Below are positions 1 to 21,079 of a DNA stretch of 24,684 nucleotides, piece by piece; positions within the stretch are counted from its first letter, which is position 1, and the number at the start of each line of letters is the position of its first letter. Made by a program: the position numbers and the translations under genes. This DNA is from a virus, in IMG/VR virus record IMGVR_UViG_3300021081_000019, positions 1 to 24,684 of that record; one strand, written 5' to 3'. The notes below the pieces were generated by a model. The model did no database searches. It saw only the letters and a program-made list of their open reading frames with translations, and was not told where the DNA came from.

Positions 1-1
1 T

Positions 2-211
2 GGCTGCTGGCTCTCTACCCGGCTTGGACTGACGGCCGAGACGTACCGCACCTGGTTTGCGGAAGGCACGCCGGCGGAATGGGTGCAGGCGCTCGACGCC
101 ATCCAGCAGACGCTGACGCAGTGCAAACGCGAGGCGGCGCAGGCCGCGCTGGCGCACCCCAGCAGGCCCGTGCAGGGCGCCTTGTTCGACAAGGAGGACG
201 CTCCACCATGA
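2..211 (+). CDS. C-terminal fragment of an unidentified protein (cut by window edge)
   Basis: The frame is open from the left edge to TGA at 209-211 and encodes the last 69 residues of a longer protein. Its stop overlaps the ATG of the next gene (ATGA), the coupling seen throughout this small operon. The fragment is partly helical, with a TWFAEGTPAEW segment followed by an amphipathic helix rich in Gln and Ala, and ends in a short acidic tail (FDKEDAPP). No domain is recognised. Its position upstream of small zinc-ribbon proteins suggests an early or accessory phage operon, but that is inference. The reading frame choice rests on the four-base overlap and the absence of stops. Confidence 0.6.
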   Translation, partial: GCWLSTRLGLTAETYRTWFAEGTPAEWVQALDAIQQTLTQCKREAAQAALAHPSRPVQGALFDKEDAPP

Positions 212-429
212 CCACCTGCACCATCTGCGCCGCCCCCTGCCCCGGCGCCGACACCGACGACGAGGCGGTCTGCCTGGCGTGCCACGCCGCCAACCTCGCC
301 GGCGCGGAGCTGCGGCCCCCGGCGAGTGTCACACGGCGCTGGCGTCGGCTGCTGGGCGAAGGGGAGCGGGCGCTGCCGGGGTATCTGCGGGCGGTGGTGG
401 CGGGCGAGGACGAAGGGAGGGAGGCGTGA
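208..429 (+). CDS. Small CxxC zinc-ribbon-like protein (73 aa)
   Basis: ATG at 208 overlaps the preceding stop by four bases and follows an AAGGAGG-type ribosome binding site. The 73-residue product opens with two cysteine pairs: CTIC near residues 4-7, then CLAC after the acidic DTDDEAV stretch, with an extra Cys-Pro between them. This is the layout of a small zinc ribbon or treble-clef fold. The remainder is basic and helical (VTRRWRRLLGEGER). Such short zinc-binding proteins are common in phage early regions and may bind nucleic acid or host proteins, but no specific family is recognised. The stop overlaps the GTG start of the next gene. Confidence 0.72.
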   Translation: MTTCTICAAPCPGADTDDEAVCLACHAANLAGAELRPPASVTRRWRRLLGEGERALPGYLRAVVAGEDEGREA

Positions 430-884
430 GCCAGACCACATCTGAGTCTGAGAGCATCGCAATCGTCGTGACGTGTACCTCGTGTGGCGAACCGCTGAGC
501 GCGGAGGAAGAGGACGCCCCACGCCCCGGCGAAGGTGACGCCGAGCTGTGCGACGACTGCTGGCGCGAGTTCTACGAGTTCGACTGCGCCTGGTGCGAGG
601 ATAGCGAGCACCAGGACGTGCAGCATGTGCTGCTCGTCGTGTTCGACGCCGCGGAGGCAGGGGTGGCCCTCCCTGGCGTCTACCGGATCGACGCGCTCCC
701 CTATTTCAGCCAGCCCGCCGTCGGGCACGGACGGCTCTGGGAGGACGCGCTGACCTGGCTCGGCTCCCTGCCCGCCTGTCACGCGGACGGCTACCCTTGC
801 GGGCACCTGTGCCGCAGGTGCCAGCGCCGTGCCCTGGACGATGTGCTGTACGGGACGCGCTGCGGCGTGGCGGCGCTGCCATGA
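426..884 (+). CDS. Cysteine-rich putative zinc-binding protein (152 aa)
   Basis: A GTG start at 426 overlaps the previous stop (GTGA) and is preceded by a strong GGGAGGGAGG stretch; this start is preferred over longer in-frame extensions, which lie within the upstream gene. The 152-residue product has at least four cysteine pairs: CTSC, CDDC and CAWC in the first 60 residues, and CGHLCRRC near the C-terminus. This suggests one or two zinc-binding modules flanking a hydrophobic beta-rich middle. The CGHLCRRC part resembles a RING- or zinc-ribbon-like knuckle, but I cannot assign a family. It is coupled to the next gene by ATGA at 881-884. Confidence 0.72.
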   Translation: MSQTTSESESIAIVVTCTSCGEPLSAEEEDAPRPGEGDAELCDDCWREFYEFDCAWCEDSEHQDVQHVLLVVFDAAEAGVALPGVYRIDALPYFSQPAVGHGRLWEDALTWLGSLPACHADGYPCGHLCRRCQRRALDDVLYGTRCGVAALP

Positions 885-1003
885 GCGCGGTCGAGGAGGA
901 GTGCCTGCGACTGCTTGCCGCAGACTATGCCATCTGGCGCATGCGGCACGGCGTGCGCCTCAACTACCTGGCCTACCTGCGGGCCCTCGGACTGGACCTG
1001 TGA
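881..1003 (+). CDS. 40-aa helical peptide, paralogue of the gene at 1519
   Basis: ATG at 881 overlaps the stop of the preceding gene by four bases, and its own TGA (1001-1003) overlaps the next GTG start. The 40-residue product is essentially one or two helices. Its core (EECLRLLAADYAIWR) closely matches the product of the gene starting at 1519 (DECLALLAAAYAVWR), so the two are paralogues within one operon. The overlaps at both ends, at the same four-base spacing as its neighbours, argue that this very short frame is translated. Function is unknown. Confidence 0.6.
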   Translation: MSAVEEECLRLLAADYAIWRMRHGVRLNYLAYLRALGLDL

Positions 1004-1221
1004 GACACGAGAGCCGCAGCACGGCGGCGCACGACGCCAAACACCACCCGCTCTCCATGGCCCACACCGAGGCGGCGGCGGCGAACGGCCTGCTCGTCTA
1101 CGTCGTGTGCGGGTGGCAGGGCTGTCCGCAACGCCTGGAGGTGGACGCGGCCGTGTGGCAGGCGGAGGTGGCGAGGCGGGGGAAGGCGGGGCTGGAGAGA
1201 CCGGAGGAGGACGAGGCATGA
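1000..1221 (+). CDS. Hypothetical protein, 73 aa
   Basis: The GTG start at 1000 is chosen because it overlaps the upstream stop (GTGA), matching the rest of the operon. An in-frame ATG at 1057 would give a 54-residue alternative. The conserved-looking part is the C-terminal half: a hydrophobic strand (LLVYVVCGWQGC) with two cysteines four residues apart, followed by an amphipathic helix and a highly charged tail (RPEEDEA). The CGWQGC knuckle could be half of a metal site. No family is recognised. The stop overlaps the ATG of the next gene at 1218. Confidence 0.55.
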   Translation: MRHESRSTAAHDAKHHPLSMAHTEAAAANGLLVYVVCGWQGCPQRLEVDAAVWQAEVARRGKAGLERPEEDEA

Positions 1222-1526
1222 CGACGGTGGCACTGTTCGAGGAGTTGTGTACGCTGGTGGACGGCCTGGCCTGCCAGGTGCACCTCCTGGCGCCGTCGCC
1301 GGAGCAGTACGCGCTGCAGGCGCTGCTGGGGCGCTTCGAGGCGCTGGTGCAGCAGGTCCGGGAGGACGGGGGCACGGAGGCTGGTCCCCAGCCTGGCCCC
1401 CAGCCTGGCCCCCAGCCTGGCACCGCCGGCTGGAGCCAGGCCCACCCGCCGGTCTACGGCACGCTGCCGGAGGCGTTCTACGCGGCGCTCGGGGAGGACA
1501 CAGAGGAGGAGGCGCCGCATGCCTGA
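1218..1526 (+). CDS. Hypothetical protein with a PQPG tandem repeat (102 aa)
   Basis: ATG at 1218 overlaps the previous stop by four bases and follows GGAGGAGGAC. Residues 1-50 form a leucine-rich amphipathic helix pair (FEELCTLVDGLACQVHLL, then LQALLGRFEALVQQV) that may oligomerise as a coiled coil. Residues about 55-70 are a flexible Pro-Gln-Pro-Gly linker made by a 12-bp triplicated DNA unit. The C-terminus has aromatic residues (VYGTLPEAFYAAL) and an acidic end. The helix-linker-short-motif design suggests a small adaptor, but function is unknown. It overlaps the next gene by 8 bases. Confidence 0.65.
   Translation: MTTVALFEELCTLVDGLACQVHLLAPSPEQYALQALLGRFEALVQQVREDGGTEAGPQPGPQPGPQPGTAGWSQAHPPVYGTLPEAFYAALGEDTEEEAPHA
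1386..1421 (+). repeat. 12-bp tandem repeat, three perfect copies
   Basis: CCCCAGCCTGGC occurs three times back to back at 1386-1397, 1398-1409 and 1410-1421. It is in frame in the host gene and encodes a Pro-Gln-Pro-Gly linker. The copies are identical in DNA, which suggests recent slippage expansion. Confidence 0.9.
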
Positions 1527-1818
1527 CGACGTCCGCGACGAGTGTCTCGCGCTGCTTGCCGCCGCCTATGCCGTCTGGCGGTGCCGGCGCGGCCGCCGGC
1601 GTGGGAGGCGGCGCTGGGAGAAGGGGAGGCGGCGGGCTAGCCCTCGCACGTCTGACACGGCACCGCCTGCGCGCGCAGCAGCACGCCGCGCACGGTGGTC
1701 ACATAGTCCACATGGCAGTGCGCCTGCGTGTCGTCGTCGTACAGCACCCACAGCACGACCGTGCCCTGGAGCACCACACAGCGCGTCCCGCCGACGACCA
1801 CCGTCGTCTGCGGCGTGA
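1519..1818 (+). CDS. Small paralogue of the 881 gene with uncertain 3' end (possible frameshift; natural stop near 1640)
   Basis: ATG at 1519 follows GAGGAGGCG and overlaps the previous stop. The first 25 residues (core DECLALLAAAYAVWR) are clearly paralogous to the 40-aa product at 881. After this the annotated frame becomes an arginine-rich run and continues to 1818, antisense for 180 nt through the convergent minus-strand gene, which looks non-coding. Shifting frame near 1590-1600 gives PAWEAALGEGEAAG ending in TAG at 1638-1640, which would converge with the minus-strand gene through a shared CTAG. I read it as a real small gene whose frame is either broken in a GC-rich run or misread. The start is fairly sure; the 3' end is not. 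Confidence 0.4.
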   Translation: MPDDVRDECLALLAAAYAVWRCRRGRRRGRRRWEKGRRRASPRTSDTAPPARAAARRARWSHSPHGSAPACRRRTAPTARPCPGAPHSASRRRPPSSAA

Positions 1819-2185
1819 GCACATCGCCGGCGTCGGAGTGCTGCGATTCGGAGGCGCGACCATGCTCCGGATAGCGTATCCACGTGAAGCTCACCACGTC
1901 TTTGGCGCGCTGGTATTTCAGCAGCGCATCGCCTGACTCGCACAGCGTCACGCCAACCTCGACGCCGTCTGCGAGCGTGACCGCGTAGACGGGCTTGAGC
2001 CGCAGACACGGCAGGTTCTTTTCCCAGAGCCGCTGTTGTTCCTGCACCTGCTGCACCTGCTGCGACTGCACGCCCAAGCGCCAGGCTTTGATTTCATTCC
2101 AGACGGTCGGGACGGAGCCACCCAAAGACAGGATGAGGCCAGGGTAGAGGAGTGCCCAGTGGTACCATTTTGAAGGCTCTGCCAC
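1637..2185 (-). CDS. Membrane-anchored hypothetical protein at the 3' end of the late operon (182 aa)
   Basis: The GTG start at 2185 sits five bases after AAGGAGG, just downstream of the OmpA-like gene, and the gene ends at the convergent junction at 1637. The 182-residue product has one N-terminal hydrophobic segment (about residues 9-30, ALLYPGLILSLGG), then a glutamine-rich helix (QSQQVQQVQEQQ), then a beta-rich domain with several valine runs (TTVVVGGTRCVVLQGTVVLWVL) and a terminal CQTC. This suggests an inner-membrane anchor with a coiled-coil stalk and a soluble domain. It follows the FecR- and OmpA-domain genes with the same orientation and tight spacing, so it probably works in the same envelope process. 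No family is recognised. Confidence 0.7.
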   Translation of the reverse strand: MAEPSKWYHWALLYPGLILSLGGSVPTVWNEIKAWRLGVQSQQVQQVQEQQRLWEKNLPCLRLKPVYAVTLADGVEVGVTLCESGDALLKYQRAKDVVSFTWIRYPEHGRASESQHSDAGDVLTPQTTVVVGGTRCVVLQGTVVLWVLYDDDTQAHCHVDYVTTVRGVLLRAQAVPCQTCEG

Positions 2186-2195
2186 CCTGCCTCCT

Positions 2196-2777
2196 TCACC
2201 TCACCACGATCTCCACGCGTCGGTTGCGCGGTTCCGCCACCTCGTCCGCCGTGGGCACCAACGGCGACCGCTCCCCCCGCCCAACGACCCGAATGAGCGA
2301 GGCCCGCAGCCCCCGGAGCAGCAGCGCCTCCCGTACCGCGACGGCCCGTTCTTTCGAGAGACGGTCATTGGCTTCCAGTGAGCCCTTGCGATCCGTATGG
2401 CCGGTAATCTGCACCTCGACTATCTGGTGCGCCTTGACGTCCTCCAGCAACGCCGTCACCGTACTATCGGCCTCGAGCGGGAGGGCCTGTGCGCCCGTCG
2501 CAAAGAGAATGGTATAGGTGCGTGACGCCGCCGGCGTCGCCTCGAGCACCGTCCCAAAGACCGCCTGCACCTCCGCCGGCGTACTGCTGCGGAGCTGCAC
2601 CCCCGTGCCGCGCAGATCAGCGGTCTGCAGCGGCTCGCGGAGGGTGCGCGTCTCGCTGGCGCTCTCGACCGTCACCTCGGCCGGCGTGTCGGACAGGCTG
2701 CGCACCAGCGTGACGAGGTCCGGAGTGGCGCACGCTGCGAGGAGGAGACACAGACTCACCAGGGCAGACAGACGCAT
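2196..2777 (-). CDS. OmpA-family peptidoglycan-binding lipoprotein (193 aa)
   Basis: The start at 2777 is chosen because it begins a lipoprotein signal (MRLSALVSLCLLLAAC) and follows GGAAAGGAG; an upstream in-frame ATG would add 12 residues ahead of the signal. Cys16 is the predicted lipidated residue, and the following Ala-Thr favours outer-membrane sorting. Residues about 85-193 form an OmpA C-terminal domain. Visible hallmarks are YTILFATG, TGHTDRKG, NDRLSKERAVAVREAL and the closing RNRRVEIVV. This fold binds diaminopimelate-type peptidoglycan. It is separated from the FecR-like gene by one base, so the two are translated together. Such a gene at the end of a phage late operon is unusual; it may be a moron, an exclusion factor or part of a lysis apparatus. 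The domain call is secure, the role is not. Confidence 0.9.
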   Translation of the reverse strand: MRLSALVSLCLLLAACATPDLVTLVRSLSDTPAEVTVESASETRTLREPLQTADLRGTGVQLRSSTPAEVQAVFGTVLEATPAASRTYTILFATGAQALPLEADSTVTALLEDVKAHQIVEVQITGHTDRKGSLEANDRLSKERAVAVREALLLRGLRASLIRVVGRGERSPLVPTADEVAEPRNRRVEIVVR

Positions 2778-2778
2778 C

Positions 2779-3225
2779 TCACTCCTTTCCGGCGCGAATC
2801 CCCACCTGCGCATCGCTCACCCGCACCGTCGCTTTCGGTGTCGTCACGGCCAGGCTGTTGCCACGCTCGCGCTTCCCGAGCAGCCCTGACTGCACGGCGA
2901 GCGTGCCCGCCGGCAACTCAGCGCGCATCTGGCCTGTCTGCCTCGTGGCATCCCACGAAAAATGGCGCAGCACCAGCCGACTCCTGGGACCAAGCGCCAG
3001 GCGGGTGTCATCGACCAGTGTGACCGCGACACTACTCGCCTTGTCGCCGGTCATGAGACTATCCCCCTCGTGCAGCACCATCCCAGGAGTGGCCGGCTGG
3101 GACGTCTGCGACCGCAGGAGCGTCACGACGCCCGACGTGGACTTCACCAGGCCAATCGCCGCCGGCTCCTGGGCCCAGACCGGCAGGGCCAGGAGCAGGG
3201 CGAGGCTGACCACCACGGACACCAT
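2779..3225 (-). CDS. Secreted FecR-domain protein (148 aa)
   Basis: ATG at 3225 starts a classic signal peptide (VVVSLALLLALPVWA) with likely cleavage before Gln19, placing the mature protein in the periplasm. Residues about 28-140 read as a FecR domain: a beta-rich repeat with LHEGDSLMTGDKASSVAVTL, the DDTRLALGPRSRLVL stretch and a late VTTPKATVRV segment. FecR domains are known from periplasmic sensing of siderophore receptors, and stand-alone secreted versions occur beside OmpA genes in many bacteria; the partner here is the OmpA lipoprotein one base downstream. No sigma factor or TonB receptor is nearby, so classical Fec signalling is unlikely. It could bind peptidoglycan or an outer-membrane protein. 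Confidence 0.82.
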   Translation of the reverse strand: MVSVVVSLALLLALPVWAQEPAAIGLVKSTSGVVTLLRSQTSQPATPGMVLHEGDSLMTGDKASSVAVTLVDDTRLALGPRSRLVLRHFSWDATRQTGQMRAELPAGTLAVQSGLLGKRERGNSLAVTTPKATVRVSDAQVGIRAGKE

Positions 3226-3228
3226 CAG

Positions 3229-3369
3229 TCAGCGGCCGAGCGGGACAGCGCGCAGGAATGCAATGATTGCCAGGAGCCATACAGCCGGCCAGAGCATGCA
3301 CTTGCCCATGGCGTGGACGATCGTCACGACACATGCTGCGACCGCGAGGAGGATCTGGACCGTCAGCAT
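3229..3369 (-). CDS. 46-aa membrane protein with two hydrophobic helices (holin-like candidate)
   Basis: ATG at 3369 follows AAGGAG at a six-base spacing, and the frame ends with TGA at 3229-3231, four bases before the FecR-like start. The 46-residue peptide has a first hydrophobic helix (about residues 3-18, VQILLAVAACVVTIV), a short turn with His, Gly and Lys, then a second (about residues 25-39, LWPAVWLLAIIAFL) and a basic end. Two-helix hairpins of this size include class II-type holins and other phage membrane peptides. Its place directly after the appendage genes and before three envelope-targeted proteins supports a membrane or lysis role. No sequence family is recognised, so holin is only a hypothesis. 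Confidence 0.6.
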   Translation of the reverse strand: MLTVQILLAVAACVVTIVHAMGKCMLWPAVWLLAIIAFLRAVPLGR

Positions 3370-3380
3370 GGGGGACTCCT

Positions 3381-3716
3381 TCACCAGGTGCGTTCCTGCA
3401 CGGTCAGCCGGCCGGTGAGGGTCCCGCGCTGATCCGCCCCGTTGTCCACCGTCAGCGTCGCGAGCACCGTACTGCCGGCCGGCGGCAGCACGACCGTGTC
3501 GCGGATGACGCCCTGGAAGAACCCCTGCGAGCCAGGCACATAGGCCAGTGCTTGCGGCCAGGTCTCCCCACCCAGCGCCACGCCGGCGCTATCGGTGAGC
3601 GTGTACTGCACGGTGGCTGCCGAGGTGAGATAGACGACGGCGCCGGTCTGATCAATGGTCGAGAGCTGCCGCGCGCGGAGAAGGCTATCGTTATCTAAGA
3701 AGAGTAAACCGGACAT
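3381..3716 (-). CDS. Small beta-rich baseplate/appendage protein (111 aa)
   Basis: ATG at 3716 is preferred because AGGAGG lies just upstream; longer in-frame starts produce an arginine-rich shadow of the neighbouring gene. The product reads as one compact beta-sandwich: a ligand-like opening (GLLFLDNDSLL), alternating strands (GAVVYLTSAATVQYTL, DSAGVALGG) and a later pair (GSTVLATLTVDNG, GTLTGRLTV). The pattern of tandem strands around a DxxG turn resembles the N-terminal Ig-like domain of upper-baseplate (BppU-type) proteins, but the similarity is at pattern level only. It overlaps the upstream gene by 22 bases and lies in the appendage block after the fibres. Confidence 0.72.
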   Translation of the reverse strand: MSGLLFLDNDSLLRARQLSTIDQTGAVVYLTSAATVQYTLTDSAGVALGGETWPQALAYVPGSQGFFQGVIRDTVVLPPAGSTVLATLTVDNGADQRGTLTGRLTVQERTW

Positions 3717-3958
3717 CCGCAGACCTCCTGAGCCGGACACGTCGTCGTGACCTGTCCGACACCGATACGTGGACCGCATACCACCACGCCCGTCACCGCT
3801 GGCGTGACCTCCACGGCGGCACAGCCAATCACGGGCACGACGTCGATCATGCCGCAAATGGCGATGCGACGCGGCACCGACGCGTAGGTGCCCCGGCCCA
3901 GGCGAAAGACGCCGATCCCCAGGCCGAGGACCTGGCTGCGCAGATCGCCAGCGGGCAT
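3695..3958 (-). CDS. Hypothetical appendage-region protein (87 aa)
   Basis: ATG at 3958 follows GGGGGGTAAC and starts immediately after the stop of the 588-aa gene, which supports this start over an extension that would run back into that gene. The 87-residue product is mainly short hydrophobic strands (VLGLGIGVFRLGRG, MIDVVPVIGCAAVEV, VTGVVVCGP) and contains five cysteines, four of them in the last half and three within TTCPAQEVCGCP. It could be a small beta-barrel or a structural cap protein. No family is recognised. The C-terminus overlaps the next gene by 22 bases, so the two are translationally coupled. Confidence 0.6.
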   Translation of the reverse strand: MPAGDLRSQVLGLGIGVFRLGRGTYASVPRRIAICGMIDVVPVIGCAAVEVTPAVTGVVVCGPRIGVGQVTTTCPAQEVCGCPVYSS

Positions 3959-3959
3959 G

Positions 3960-5726
3960 TTACCCCCCTGCTGACACGATGGGCTCAGCCGCGTCATCCA
4001 TGACTAAAGGAATCTGGGCTAATTCCGTGGTGCCATTCACCCGGTAGACCGTGAGAGAGCCCTGATGCGAGGTGGTATCTCTGCGATGTCCGCTGCCAAT
4101 CGCCATGAGCCCATAGAGTGAGTTGATGGCTAAGGCCTCGCCGTCGGGACTCGCCTCGATGGCGCTGGTGTGGCGCCGCGCCAAGATGTCGGCCATCTTC
4201 TCGCACGCCGCCGCCGCCAGCGCCACCGCCGTCACCGCGTTTGCCGCCAGCGTCATCGGCGAGCCGACGGCGGCCGGTTGCGGCGGCAGATTATCCGTCT
4301 TGGCTTTGATCGCTGCCACCTCTGTGTCGATATACCCGGCAATCGTCGCCAGCTCCGCACTGAGGGCACTGAACGACGCGGCAAGCACTGAGGCATCTGC
4401 TGGGTCAGGCGGCAAGGCATCGGTTTTGGCCTTTACCTGGTCCACAGTCGATTGCGACGCCACCAGGTCACCAATGCCCAGGTTGTCGAGAAAGCCAGCT
4501 CTGAGAGCCGTCAGGCGTGCAAGAAGGGCATTCGTATCGGTCTTCACGCCGGCGACATCCGCAGAGACGCTCGCGCCTGCTGGCGCCCCGAGCCTGACAA
4601 AGGCATCCCCGGTCTGCGGGGTATTGCCCGTGTAGGTGGTCACCGTGTCGGTGAGCGTCACGCGCGCCACGGCGCCGGTAGCCTCGTCGAGTTGCACGTC
4701 GCCGTCCGGATTGGCGGTACCGACGAGATAGTTTTTACTGGGCAGCTTGTTAAAGACCGCCGTCAGATGCGCCGCATCGGTGGTGCTCCAGGTGGCAGAG
4801 ACGACGTCGAGGACCTGGGCGTAGGCCGACAGAGTAAACGTGCTCCCGCCCAGCAGCGCGCTGACGTCGAAGCGTATCTGCTCCAGGGTGGCCACACTCG
4901 ATACGGTGTACATCCAGCGGGAGACCCCCAGCGCCGGCTGCGCCACCGGGAAGAGTGCGAGGGAGAGATCCCCGCTGAGTGAGCCGGTCGCCGTCAGTGT
5001 CGGCGGTGTGTCGGCGTTGACCGCTGCCCCATCACCGTCATAGGTGCGCAGCTCGACGGTATACAGCACGCTCCCGGTCTCGGGCCGCTCGAACTGCTGC
5101 ACGGTCGTGAGGACCAGGCGGCGACTGGCGGACTGGTTCAGCGCCTCGACGTCGGCCCGGCTCGCGACGGGACCGCCCACGTTCAGGGTGTCGAGATAGG
5201 CCGCCCTGGCCGCTGTCAGCCGCGTCGTGAGTGTCCCCGTGTCCGCATGCACGGCGGCGACGTCGGCGCTGACGCTGGCGCCGGCGGGGGTCCCGAGCCG
5301 GGCGTAGGCGTCACCGCTCTGAGGGGTGTCGCCGGTGTACGCCGTGATGGTGTCGGCGAGGGTGACGCGCGGCAGCACCACGCCGGTCTGCGCATCCGCA
5401 GAGAGCAGCGTCTTGAAGTCGGTGCCCAGTGTCCGCGTCGGCTGGATCTGCACCGTGACGTCATCCCACTGCCCGTCCGGATCATGCGCCACGACGTCCA
5501 CCTGCTGCGTCACGGTCATTTCCGTGGCGCTGAGCTGCACGCGCACCAGGGCGGAGCCGGCCGGTGCCACGGTCGGCAGGGTGGCGAGGTTCACCAGAGC
5601 GCCGTGGTCCTGGCTCACCTGAAAGTCGCCGGCTGCCAGCGTCGGATTGGCGCGCAGGGCGCCGGTGGCAGCGTCGATCAGGGTCAGGGTAAAGTCGTAG
5701 GCGACGCCGCGGATGGGGTCTGGCAT
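3960..5726 (-). CDS. Phage tail fibre/baseplate protein with two internal repeat modules (588 aa)
   Basis: ATG at 5726 follows AGGAGGACGT; the frame upstream of it is antisense-like, arginine-rich shadow and is left out. Residues 1-100 are a beta-rich Ig-like start (YDFTLTLIDAATGAL). Residues 121-195 and 356-430 are homologous modules with the signature YTGxTPQxGDAxxRLGxPAGASVSADVA, each followed by a helix. Residues about 196-350 form another beta domain. The C-terminus (about 480-588) has the MADILARRHTSAIEAS helix and a LTVYRVNGTTELAQIPL hairpin, a combination I recognise from many phage tail and fibre proteins. It probably forms part of the tip or side-fibre complex. Receptor binding is inferred from position, not shown. 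Confidence 0.82.
   Translation of the reverse strand: MPDPIRGVAYDFTLTLIDAATGALRANPTLAAGDFQVSQDHGALVNLATLPTVAPAGSALVRVQLSATEMTVTQQVDVVAHDPDGQWDDVTVQIQPTRTLGTDFKTLLSADAQTGVVLPRVTLADTITAYTGDTPQSGDAYARLGTPAGASVSADVAAVHADTGTLTTRLTAARAAYLDTLNVGGPVASRADVEALNQSASRRLVLTTVQQFERPETGSVLYTVELRTYDGDGAAVNADTPPTLTATGSLSGDLSLALFPVAQPALGVSRWMYTVSSVATLEQIRFDVSALLGGSTFTLSAYAQVLDVVSATWSTTDAAHLTAVFNKLPSKNYLVGTANPDGDVQLDEATGAVARVTLTDTVTTYTGNTPQTGDAFVRLGAPAGASVSADVAGVKTDTNALLARLTALRAGFLDNLGIGDLVASQSTVDQVKAKTDALPPDPADASVLAASFSALSAELATIAGYIDTEVAAIKAKTDNLPPQPAAVGSPMTLAANAVTAVALAAAACEKMADILARRHTSAIEASPDGEALAINSLYGLMAIGSGHRRDTTSHQGSLTVYRVNGTTELAQIPLVMDDAAEPIVSAGG
4437..4661 (-). repeat. Internal protein repeat, copy 2 (residues 356-430 of the 588-aa protein)
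   Basis: This copy encodes YTGNTPQTGDAFVRLG and PAGASVSADVAGV, then a matching helix (LTALRAGFLDNLG) and the start of a VKAKTDALPP linker. It aligns with copy 1, 705 nt away. Confidence 0.8.
5142..5366 (-). repeat. Internal protein repeat, copy 1 (residues 121-195 of the 588-aa protein)
   Basis: This copy encodes YTGDTPQSGDAYARLG and PAGASVSADVAAV followed by a Thr/Leu helix. It is about 225 nt long and aligns with copy 2 without large gaps. DNA identity is still visible, for example around the sequence encoding PAGASVSADV. Confidence 0.8.
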
Positions 5727-6256: not shown

Positions 6257-7219
6257 CTATGTTGGTGCTGCTTCTAAGGCCTCGACACGTGCCAGCAGGG
6301 CTTGCACAGCGCCGACGAGCCACACCACCAGTTTGCTATGATCCACCTGTTGCGGGCGGATCGTGCCATCGTCGTTCACGGCATCGGACTCGCCGGTCAC
6401 GGCATGCGGCAAGACCTGTTGCAGTTCGTGGGCGAGGAAGCCTTCATCCGGGCTGTCGTCGACATTCCACCGGAAGGTCACAGGCCGCAACGCCCGGACG
6501 TTCTCCAGCGCGTCCGTGAGCGTCTCAATCGCGTGCTTGAGCCGTGCGTCAGAACTCGTGTTAAAGGTGGTCGCGCTTGCCGTCGTCACAATCGTCCCCA
6601 CGATCGCCTGGGCCAGATTGGAAAACTGAATGGCCGCGCCCGATCCGGTATCATTATCCTGCGTCACCAGGAGAATCCCCGCATTACTCGTCGCTTTCGA
6701 ATAGCCGACATAGGCACTGACATTCGCCATGGGCGCGATGCGTATGCCGAGACCCGTTTGAATATAGGCGCTATTGCCAACGGTGAGCTGGGCGAGGAGG
6801 TTCGTCGTGCCGACCCCCACCTGTCCCGCGAGATAGTTCGGCGCCAGGCCATCCGCAAAGAGATTCCAACGCTGCGTTCCTCCAGTCGCCACGAGTCGCA
6901 GCAGCAGGCCATATTGATTGCTGCCACTGCGCTCAGGCACCTCCAGCGCACTCAGCCCCGTCACGCTCCCCCCCGTCACCGCCACCGCGTTCGCGTTCTG
7001 CGTCGCCAGCGTCCCCAGCCCCAGCGTCGTGCGCGCCGTCGCCTGGTCGACGTCGTCCAGTAACGTCCGCGCAAACGGCGTAATCGTCATCAGCGCCGCT
7101 GCGTCGACGCCGGTAAAATACGGCGCCGTGTCGGCACTCGTGGCTAAGGCCGCGAGGGCCTGCAGGGTGGCGTCGAAGGGTTGCGCGGCGGCGAGGCCGG
7201 GGTACGGGTCAACGCTCAT
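6257..7219 (-). CDS. Tail fibre with C-terminal S74 intramolecular chaperone (320 aa), second of two
   Basis: ATG at 7219 overlaps the upstream fibre stop by four bases; an upstream in-frame ATG would add 28 arginine-rich residues and is rejected. Residues 1-60 are a repeat-like N-terminus ([19 protein letters not shown]). Residues about 60-220 are a beta-helical shaft with [11 protein letters not shown] and a VGVGTT strand region. From residue 222 the S74 (intramolecular chaperone auto-processing) domain begins with SSDARLK, containing the Ser/Lys pair used for self-cleavage in this family, followed by ALRPVTFRW and [12 protein letters not shown]. The domain trimerises the fibre and is then released. 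It ends in a leucine coiled coil. The product is very likely a receptor-contacting fibre. Confidence 0.9.
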
Positions 7220-8370
7220 AGTGCGCCTCCTTCCAGCGCAGTGACACGGGTCCTGAGCGTTTCGACCTGCGCGAGCAACTCTTGCAGACCAGCCGTGAGC
7301 CACACCACGAGTTTGCTATGATCGACTTGTTGCGGACGGATGGAGCCATCGTCGTTGATGGCATCCGGCTCGCCCGTCACGGCGTCAGGAATCACCTGCT
7401 GCAGCTCGTGCGCCAGGAAGCCGACGCCAGGCGAGCCATCCGCCTGCCACCGGTGGCTGACGGGACGCAGCGCACGGAGGACGTCGAGGGCGCCGGCGAG
7501 GGGCGCCATGGCGTATTTGAGACGGACATCGGAGGAGGTGTTGTAGGCGGTGGCGGAGGCGGTGGTGGTAATCGAGCCGACCACCGCAGTTCCACTGTTG
7601 CGGAACAAGACCGCACTCCCTAGTCCAGTATCATTATCGTTTGGCATAATCACTATGCAATCCTGCGTCTGCTTCGCATACCAGAGCACCTGCTTGTTAT
7701 TGAACGTAATGGGAGTGCCGCTGCCAATACGTACTTGCGAAGGAGTGTCCACTACCCCGCCAAAATGACTCGGCGCGTCACTGGTACAATAGAAGGACCA
7801 GCGCTCCGCCCCGCCTGCTGCCGCAATATACGAGACAAAACCGTAGACGCTGCTCCCGGCGTAATTCTGCGCATTGACCCCCGCACTAAAATTCGCGGTA
7901 CCAGTCACGCTAATGGCACTCAGCCCCGTGACATTCCCCCCCGTAATCGCCACCGCGCCCGCGTTCTGCGTCGCCAGCGTCCCCAGCCCCAGGTTGCTGC
8001 GGGCGGTGGCGGCGTCTGTCGCCCCGGTACCGCCCACCGACACCGCCAGCGGCGTATTGAGCACCGCCAGCGTCCCCAGCCCCAGCGCCGTGCGCTGCGC
8101 CGCCGCGTCGGCGCCGGCCACCAGCGTGCGCCCGGCCGCCGTGAACGTCGCCAGCGCCGCCGTGCCGGCGCCCGTGAAGTACGGCAGGCGGTCGGCGGCA
8201 GAGGTGAGGCCGGCGAGGGCCTGCAACTCGACGTCCTGCGCCTGCACGTCGGTGCCAGGCACCAGCCCCAGCGCCGAACGCGCCGCCGCCGCCGTGGTGG
8301 CGCCGGTGCCGCCGCGGGCGAGCGTGAGCGGGTTGGGCAGGGTCGGGCGTTGGATGGTGAGCGGTGCCAT
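7216..8370 (-). CDS. Tail fibre with C-terminal S74 intramolecular chaperone (384 aa), first of two
   Basis: ATG at 8370 begins a collagen-like N-terminus rich in fibre repeats: [19 protein letters not shown] and later [20 protein letters not shown], the GGTGAT repeat common in phage tail fibres. Residues about 45-75 ([19 protein letters not shown]) match the N-terminus of the downstream fibre. The middle is a variable beta shaft. The S74 domain starts at residue 279 with SSDVRLK, then ALRPVSHRW and [12 protein letters not shown], and ends in a leucine-rich coiled coil. This copy is 64 residues longer than its neighbour, mainly in the N-terminal repeats. The two genes overlap by four bases and clearly arose by duplication. 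Confidence 0.9.
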
Positions 8371-20839: not shown

Positions 20840-21079
20840 ATGGACCCGCAACTACTCGCCTCGCTCAACACGATTGCCCAGAACCAGCAAATTACCTATA
20901 CCTGGACGGTCGGCGCCGCGCTCGTCTATCTCAGCGGCCTCTGTTTCGTCTGGTGGCGACTTTCTGTCCGTCTCGACAGGCGCCATGACGAAACCCGGAC
21001 CGCCCTCGCCGCCATGCAGGCGACGTCACAGGCCATCGTCGCGCAGACCGCTGAACTGCTCCGGCGCACCAGCCCCTAA
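20840..21079 (+). CDS. Single-span membrane/coiled-coil protein on the opposite strand, moron-like (79 aa)
   Basis: ATG at 20840 follows AGAGGAG at a good spacing. The 79-residue product has a polar N-terminus (DPQLLASLNTIAQNQQ), one transmembrane helix at about 20-41 (TVGAALVYLSGLCFVWW), a basic stop-transfer stretch (RLDRRHDE), then a helix likely to coil (TRTALAAMQATSQAIVAQTA). It is the only plus-strand gene inside the minus-strand late operon, has its own leader and converges on the gp10-like gene with a four-base overlap. That is the arrangement of a moron expressed separately from late genes. Candidate roles are superinfection exclusion, holin regulation or membrane sensing; none can be proven here. 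Confidence 0.7.
   Translation: MDPQLLASLNTIAQNQQITYTWTVGAALVYLSGLCFVWWRLSVRLDRRHDETRTALAAMQATSQAIVAQTAELLRRTSP

Follow-up and report, generated by a model that had tools for sequence, protein, structure and literature searches.

A late, envelope-directed MemC-OmpA gene pair in phages and its possible part in exit from diderm hosts

The DNA analysed here, a linear IMG/VR virus record of 24.7 kb (the window), carries four envelope genes at the 3' end of a head and tail late operon on the minus strand (Table 1). Two of them, encoding an OmpA-domain lipoprotein and a membrane protein named MemC, form what appears from its sequence to be a conserved, late, envelope-directed pair, which by sequence belongs to no known spanin or holin family. 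We tentatively propose that these genes constitute a late envelope module aiding phage exit from a diderm host, in a spanin-like or holin-like manner, a role that seems to us plausible if somewhat short of probable. It is the most economical reading because of the position of the genes, the cassette that they form with an endolysin gene in one complete phage (G025), and the missing alternatives.

The initial annotation, which placed four envelope-targeted genes at the end of a late operon, is borne out in its open reading frames, strand, domains and spacing. The intergenic gaps within p46-FecR-OmpA-MemC are 3, 1, and 10 nt, the first being that between the p46 stop and the FecR start, and 11 nt separate p46 from the upstream 111-aa gene. 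Ribosome-binding sites of the AAGGAG type precede three of the four starts. A search of positions 1200-4100 gave no promoter-like site, and the two terminator-like sites near the cassette both lie within genes. Pairwise dN/dS is about 0.1-0.4 for each of the four genes, values that are rough as dS is often near saturation; these ratios, together with homologues in other phages, identify the four ORFs as real genes under purifying selection rather than chance ORFs. Homologues of the 588-aa tail-tip-region gene stand immediately before MemC-OmpA in G002, G004, and G021.

Table 1 Features of the window discussed in the text (context genes are marked as such).
Feature	Position	Strand	Product	Remarks
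p46	3229..3369	-	46 aa, two hydrophobic helices	SD aaggag; accessory
FecR-domain protein	2779..3225	-	148 aa, signal peptide, predicted periplasmic	PF04773
OmpA-domain outer-membrane lipoprotein	2196..2777	-	193 aa, lipobox LAAC, +2 Ala	PF00691
MemC	1637..2185	-	182 aa, one N-terminal TM helix, bridge helix, predicted periplasmic beta domain(s), 6 cysteines	
Upstream late gene (context)	3381..3716	-	111 aa	Homologue at corresponding place in G006
Tail-tip-region late gene (context)	3960..5726	-	588 aa	Homologues in relatives

Other parts of the window also have distinctive features. Beyond MemC, the gene after OmpA, lies a convergent cluster of small ORFs (1-1526, plus strand) with homologues in related phages, several of whose products have CxxC zinc-ribbon-like motifs. 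Two tandem tail-spike-like proteins (6257-8370, minus strand) each show by eye an S74 chaperone-like C-terminal motif, and Peptidase_S74 was detected in the scans of G004 and G014/G023. A 79-aa one-TM protein (20840-21079, plus strand) is encoded against the late operon; small helix-TM-coil genes like it, some with weak DUF4381 similarity, occupy antisense or moron positions in G001, G002, G004, G008, G010, G014, and G023, and are possibly prophage-expressed membrane morons.

Among the relatives, G001 is a nearly identical longer contig that adds upstream late genes. The ends of G004, G017, G021, and G025 overlap exactly, by 79-127 nt, and these genomes were taken as complete circles; in G014 the end overlap is 224 bp at 92%. 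Twelve phage lineages carry both MemC and OmpA; the two genes are neighbours in 11 of them and distant from each other in G016. In G017 (complete), G018, and G024, the last of which may be a fragment, MemC is present but OmpA is not. The search for the same four-gene order in other phages, proposed by the initial annotation, recovered it once more, in G022 (two phage lineages in total). MemC and OmpA are the conserved core, and the full set is rare. In 7 of 12 genomes, the stop codon of MemC overlaps with the start codon of OmpA, which suggests that their translation is coupled. A search for hosts in bacterial genomes using the major capsid protein gave no relative. As further observations, the 66-kb phage G022 encodes two very large proteins of 1986 and 1769 aa (43686-54966, L109/L110), and G004 encodes, near its integrase, a Pro- and Cys-rich predicted lipoprotein of 102 aa with an SMAC box (L028:15239-15547).

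The other two genes are more sporadic. Homologues of p46, which had no match in the phage collection, are present in G002, G004, G022, G023, G026, and G027 (seven lineages in all), two hydrophobic segments being seen in five homologues, and in some phages the gene lies on the opposite strand, adjoining OmpA. The window FecR matches PF04773 above the curated cut-off (E 4.8e-6). Among these phages, FecR is found only in the window phage (with G001) and in G022, where a homologue 58% identical occupies the same place (L048), and a search of more phages returned nothing beyond these two lineages. We infer that FecR and p46 are optional accessories of the module.

The window OmpA belongs to the OmpA-like peptidoglycan-binding family, with a PF00691 match (E 2.1e-16, 60.5 bits) above the curated cut-off of 27.2 bits and an Asp/Arg pair, D129/R144. 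The 15-residue spacing of this pair is kept in all 12 phage homologues and matches that of D271 and R286, the diaminopimelate-binding residues of A. baumannii OmpA (PMC6572160), so that peptidoglycan binding by the phage proteins is likely. A lipobox is found in 11 of the 12, that of G021 being marginal, and the +2 residue is never Asp, from which sorting to the outer membrane is predicted.

Concerning the origin of these genes, the initial annotation described FecR plus OmpA as a known bacterial pair. Indeed, chromosomal FecR-OmpA loci were found: a FecR gene lies near 16 of the 17 best OmpA matches covering nearly the whole query (Pseudomonadota genomes), and both downstream genes tested at such loci carry CHASE2. 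As in the bacterial locus, FecR in the window and in G022 is directly upstream of this OmpA subtype, whose similarity extends over the full length. The phage set differs in lacking CHASE2, MemC standing at the next position in the window with no CHASE2 gene near the cassette, in having MemC and the 46-aa protein in addition, and in its presumed late expression. In the tree, all phage OmpAs group in a single clade (support 96/87) next to the FecR-linked bacterial OmpAs, and the two phages with FecR are sister to those without it. This points to a single old capture of a bacterial chromosomal FecR-OmpA pair, with FecR probably lost later in most phages; the direction of transfer is a deduction, because the tree was rooted at its midpoint and includes some long bacterial rows. 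Recent host contamination was rejected since the phage sequences fall into a single deep OmpA clade and phages ranging from 42 to 66% in GC content have the genes in common.

MemC is a new, previously undescribed family, with no usable match in Pfam, PHROG, PDB sequences, or INPHARED (50,697 phage records). Alignments of 11 and 18 sequences were used. All 18 homologues have one N-terminal hydrophobic segment and share W54, N57, C60, C82, G85, D86, L88, and W102, and the cysteine count is exactly 2 (in the short homologues) or 6 (as in the window protein). The conservation of even cysteines, down to the bacterial homologues, suggests a periplasmic disulfide domain, and the 2 or 6 conserved cysteines would place the C-terminus in the periplasm, i.e. 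an N-in/C-out topology with the beta domain outside the inner membrane. In AlphaFold models (pLDDT 60-67, low confidence), a TM/bridge helix is followed by beta strands. The initial annotation had described this protein as a coiled-coil inner-membrane protein, which we reject, both models being mostly beta, if at low confidence. A Foldseek search with these two models gave nothing below E 0.001. Within one Hyphomicrobiales family, 7 of 30 genomes carry a bacterial homologue, and six of these seven genes (L086-L088, L157-L163) lie between accA and a gene for a YkuD-domain L,D-transpeptidase lipoprotein. Since these homologues are stable chromosomal genes that cannot be constitutively lethal, the MemC family is not inherently lethal.

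The link to lysis is most direct in the complete circular genome G025, where MemC, OmpA, and a GH24 endolysin gene (PF00959, E 1e-36; PHROG category lysis) are consecutive on one strand, overlapping or 9 nt apart. This endolysin should need a holin, because it has no evident N-terminal signal/SAR helix. By simple hydropathy, none of the 62 G025 genes predicted with our own gene caller, other than MemC, encodes a convincing small TM protein, the other hydrophobic proteins looking soluble or tail-type, and a scan of the unassigned G025 space for SD-preceded small TM ORFs returned none. G018, a relative with many late proteins about 80% identical, lacks the MemC-OmpA-GH24 block at the corresponding site and has a lone MemC between two head-region genes, a difference that would fit the three genes being gained or lost together. 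The complete genome G021 has a GH24 gene convergent with OmpA that overlaps its 3' end by 11 nt; being on opposite strands, the two are not on one transcript. Among the GH24 relatives, MemC/OmpA were found at only 2 of 80 loci, those of G021 and G025, so the pair was rejected as a general feature of these endolysins, and the link was noticed post hoc, in two genomes.

No endolysin family was recognised in the protein scans of G004, G014, G016, G018, G022, G023, G024, and G026, the one exception being a 715-aa SLT-domain protein of G023 that resembles a virion or ejection protein. This absence is provisional, because the scans omitted very small, very large, and fetched-segment-edge proteins, covered G017 only partly, and for G004 gave a table of 25 of 27 families. 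Since it was judged by profile searches only, unrecognised endolysins are likely elsewhere. Within the same 25 of 27 families, complete G004 also yielded no canonical lysis cassette, the finding of which was one part of what the initial annotation had said would speak against its proposal. As a separate observation, G006, which has no MemC-OmpA, carries at the equivalent late-operon 3' end a gene for a 117-aa protein with a TM/lipobox, a coil, and a Pro-rich part, a spanin-like layout (29005-29358; L033:9005-9358).

How would such a module work? Partly captured from a bacterial FecR-OmpA locus and expressed late, it would set MemC in the inner membrane and OmpA in the outer membrane and wall at the end of infection, and after the wall has been cut the two may function together like a spanin pair. 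As in the two-component spanin Rz/Rz1, the genes of MemC-OmpA are neighbours or overlap, one coding for a predicted inner-membrane protein with a single TM helix and the other for an outer-membrane lipoprotein, and in two genomes an endolysin gene lies close by. The lipobox is, by prediction, as in o-spanins; the single N-terminal segment would suit an i-spanin if, as the cysteines suggest, the C-terminus is periplasmic. However, the o-spanin of Rz/Rz1 is a short Pro-rich peptide, whereas the phage lipoprotein is a 175-residue OmpA peptidoglycan-binding protein; its partner is beta-rich, the gene order is reversible, MemC also occurs alone, and the two partners are not always linked (G016). 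A fusion role of MemC-OmpA is putative, and a spanin-like pair is, in our view, a doubtful assignment. Alternatively, MemC itself would be a holin like T of T4, assisted by OmpA at the outer membrane. T has a short N-terminal region, a single TM helix, a bridge helix, and a periplasmic globular disulfide domain (PMC12162936), a layout that MemC may share, to judge from its model (pLDDT about 67) and its cysteine pattern. Nevertheless, no Pfam, PHROG, PDB, or Foldseek match connects the two (the models being of low confidence), nor does MemC match any other holin or spanin by fold or sequence, and, in contrast to T, it has bacterial chromosomal homologues; a pore role is putative, and a holin function for MemC quite unlikely. 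That a captured OmpA-type lipoprotein and MemC do holin and/or spanin work, with FecR optional, as a diderm lysis module of a new class is possible, if questionable. In the literature searched, neither OmpA-type o-spanins nor a precedent for OmpA-MemC has been described.

The unconventional lysis or spanin-like system suggested by the initial annotation is partly supported: its late position in line with tail genes, envelope targeting (with an OmpA whose peptidoglycan-binding pair is intact), and spanin-like layout are upheld, and a link to lysis is favoured by the G025 cassette and, more weakly, by G021, but it falters where the OmpA partner is missing (G017, G018, G024). Also against lysis are the lack of a recognised endolysin in G018, the chromosomal, non-lethal MemC homologues in Hyphomicrobiales, and the restriction of endolysin linkage to two genomes, in one of which the genes are on different strands.

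Two other explanations are serious rivals to host exit. The module may remodel the envelope without lysis, an outer membrane-wall tether and its inner-membrane partner stabilising or tuning the host envelope during infection or lysogeny and keeping an ancestral role. Such a role, which we consider rather unlikely, is in line with the conserved bacterial FecR-OmpA pair beside CHASE2 proteins, with the peptidoglycan-binding residues intact in all 12 phage OmpAs, and with the YkuD L,D-transpeptidase gene next to six of seven bacterial MemC genes; it fits less well with the collinearity of the genes with virion genes and, in G025, an endolysin gene, or with a window cassette that has no CHASE2 partner nearby. 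Pelagiphages and Melnitz similarly carry bacterial-origin FecR and CHASE2-cyclase genes as host-derived modules, but these come with curli and cyclase genes and have no OmpA or MemC annotated beside them. The Methylophilales phage Melnitz has a CsgF-CsgG-curlin-FecR-curlin-CHASE2/cyclase cluster (L246:3954-10099), tied by its CHASE2 domain to the bacterial FecR-OmpA-CHASE2 locus, and its authors also proposed a role in lysis timing for the curli pore (PMC9004378). The other serious rival is superinfection exclusion or receptor shielding, in which OmpA (with MemC) would alter the outer membrane late, so that relatives cannot inject and progeny avoid debris. The cassette lies just after tail-tip-region genes in several phages, as T5 Llp lies beside the receptor-binding protein gene (PMC9586334), and an outer-membrane lipoprotein in both temperate and non-integrase phages would fit. 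Llp and Cor, however, are much smaller lipoproteins with neither an OmpA domain nor a MemC partner, MemC is a predicted inner-membrane protein that in G018 and G016 lies in head or terminase regions without OmpA beside it, and the GH24 adjacency is left unexplained; we regard exclusion as unlikely.

The initial annotation also considered a lysogenic-conversion cassette, i.e. host-derived moron genes expressed from the prophage for host benefit. Integrases are encoded by G004, G014, G017, and G021, and FecR-OmpA is of bacterial ancestry, but the cassette shares strand and tight spacing with the late operon, with neither a promoter-like site nor a convincing terminator between them. Moreover, MemC/OmpA are also carried, collinear with virion genes, by phages in which an integrase was not detectable (the search gave none in G016, G018, and G022-G027, of which G025 is complete), which makes a function restricted to lysogeny unlikely and the moron reading, now weakened, improbable. 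That OmpA and MemC are virion components, present in the particle or used in tail assembly or ejection, could be argued from their place among tail genes in G025 and G026, but lipobox and TM sequences target the envelope and the position is not fixed among related phages, leaving this highly improbable.

A gene for outer-membrane lysis cannot be recognised in many phages: a survey of spanins found none in 91 of 677 phages (PMC6139136). If MemC-OmpA does carry out outer-membrane lysis, it would offer a searchable and testable answer for part of the phages with no recognised gene, and phages would be turning a bacterial wall-anchoring lipoprotein against the envelope. If its function is not lysis, MemC would still be an envelope family that is widespread in phages and previously undescribed, and whose bacterial counterpart is encoded beside a peptidoglycan enzyme.
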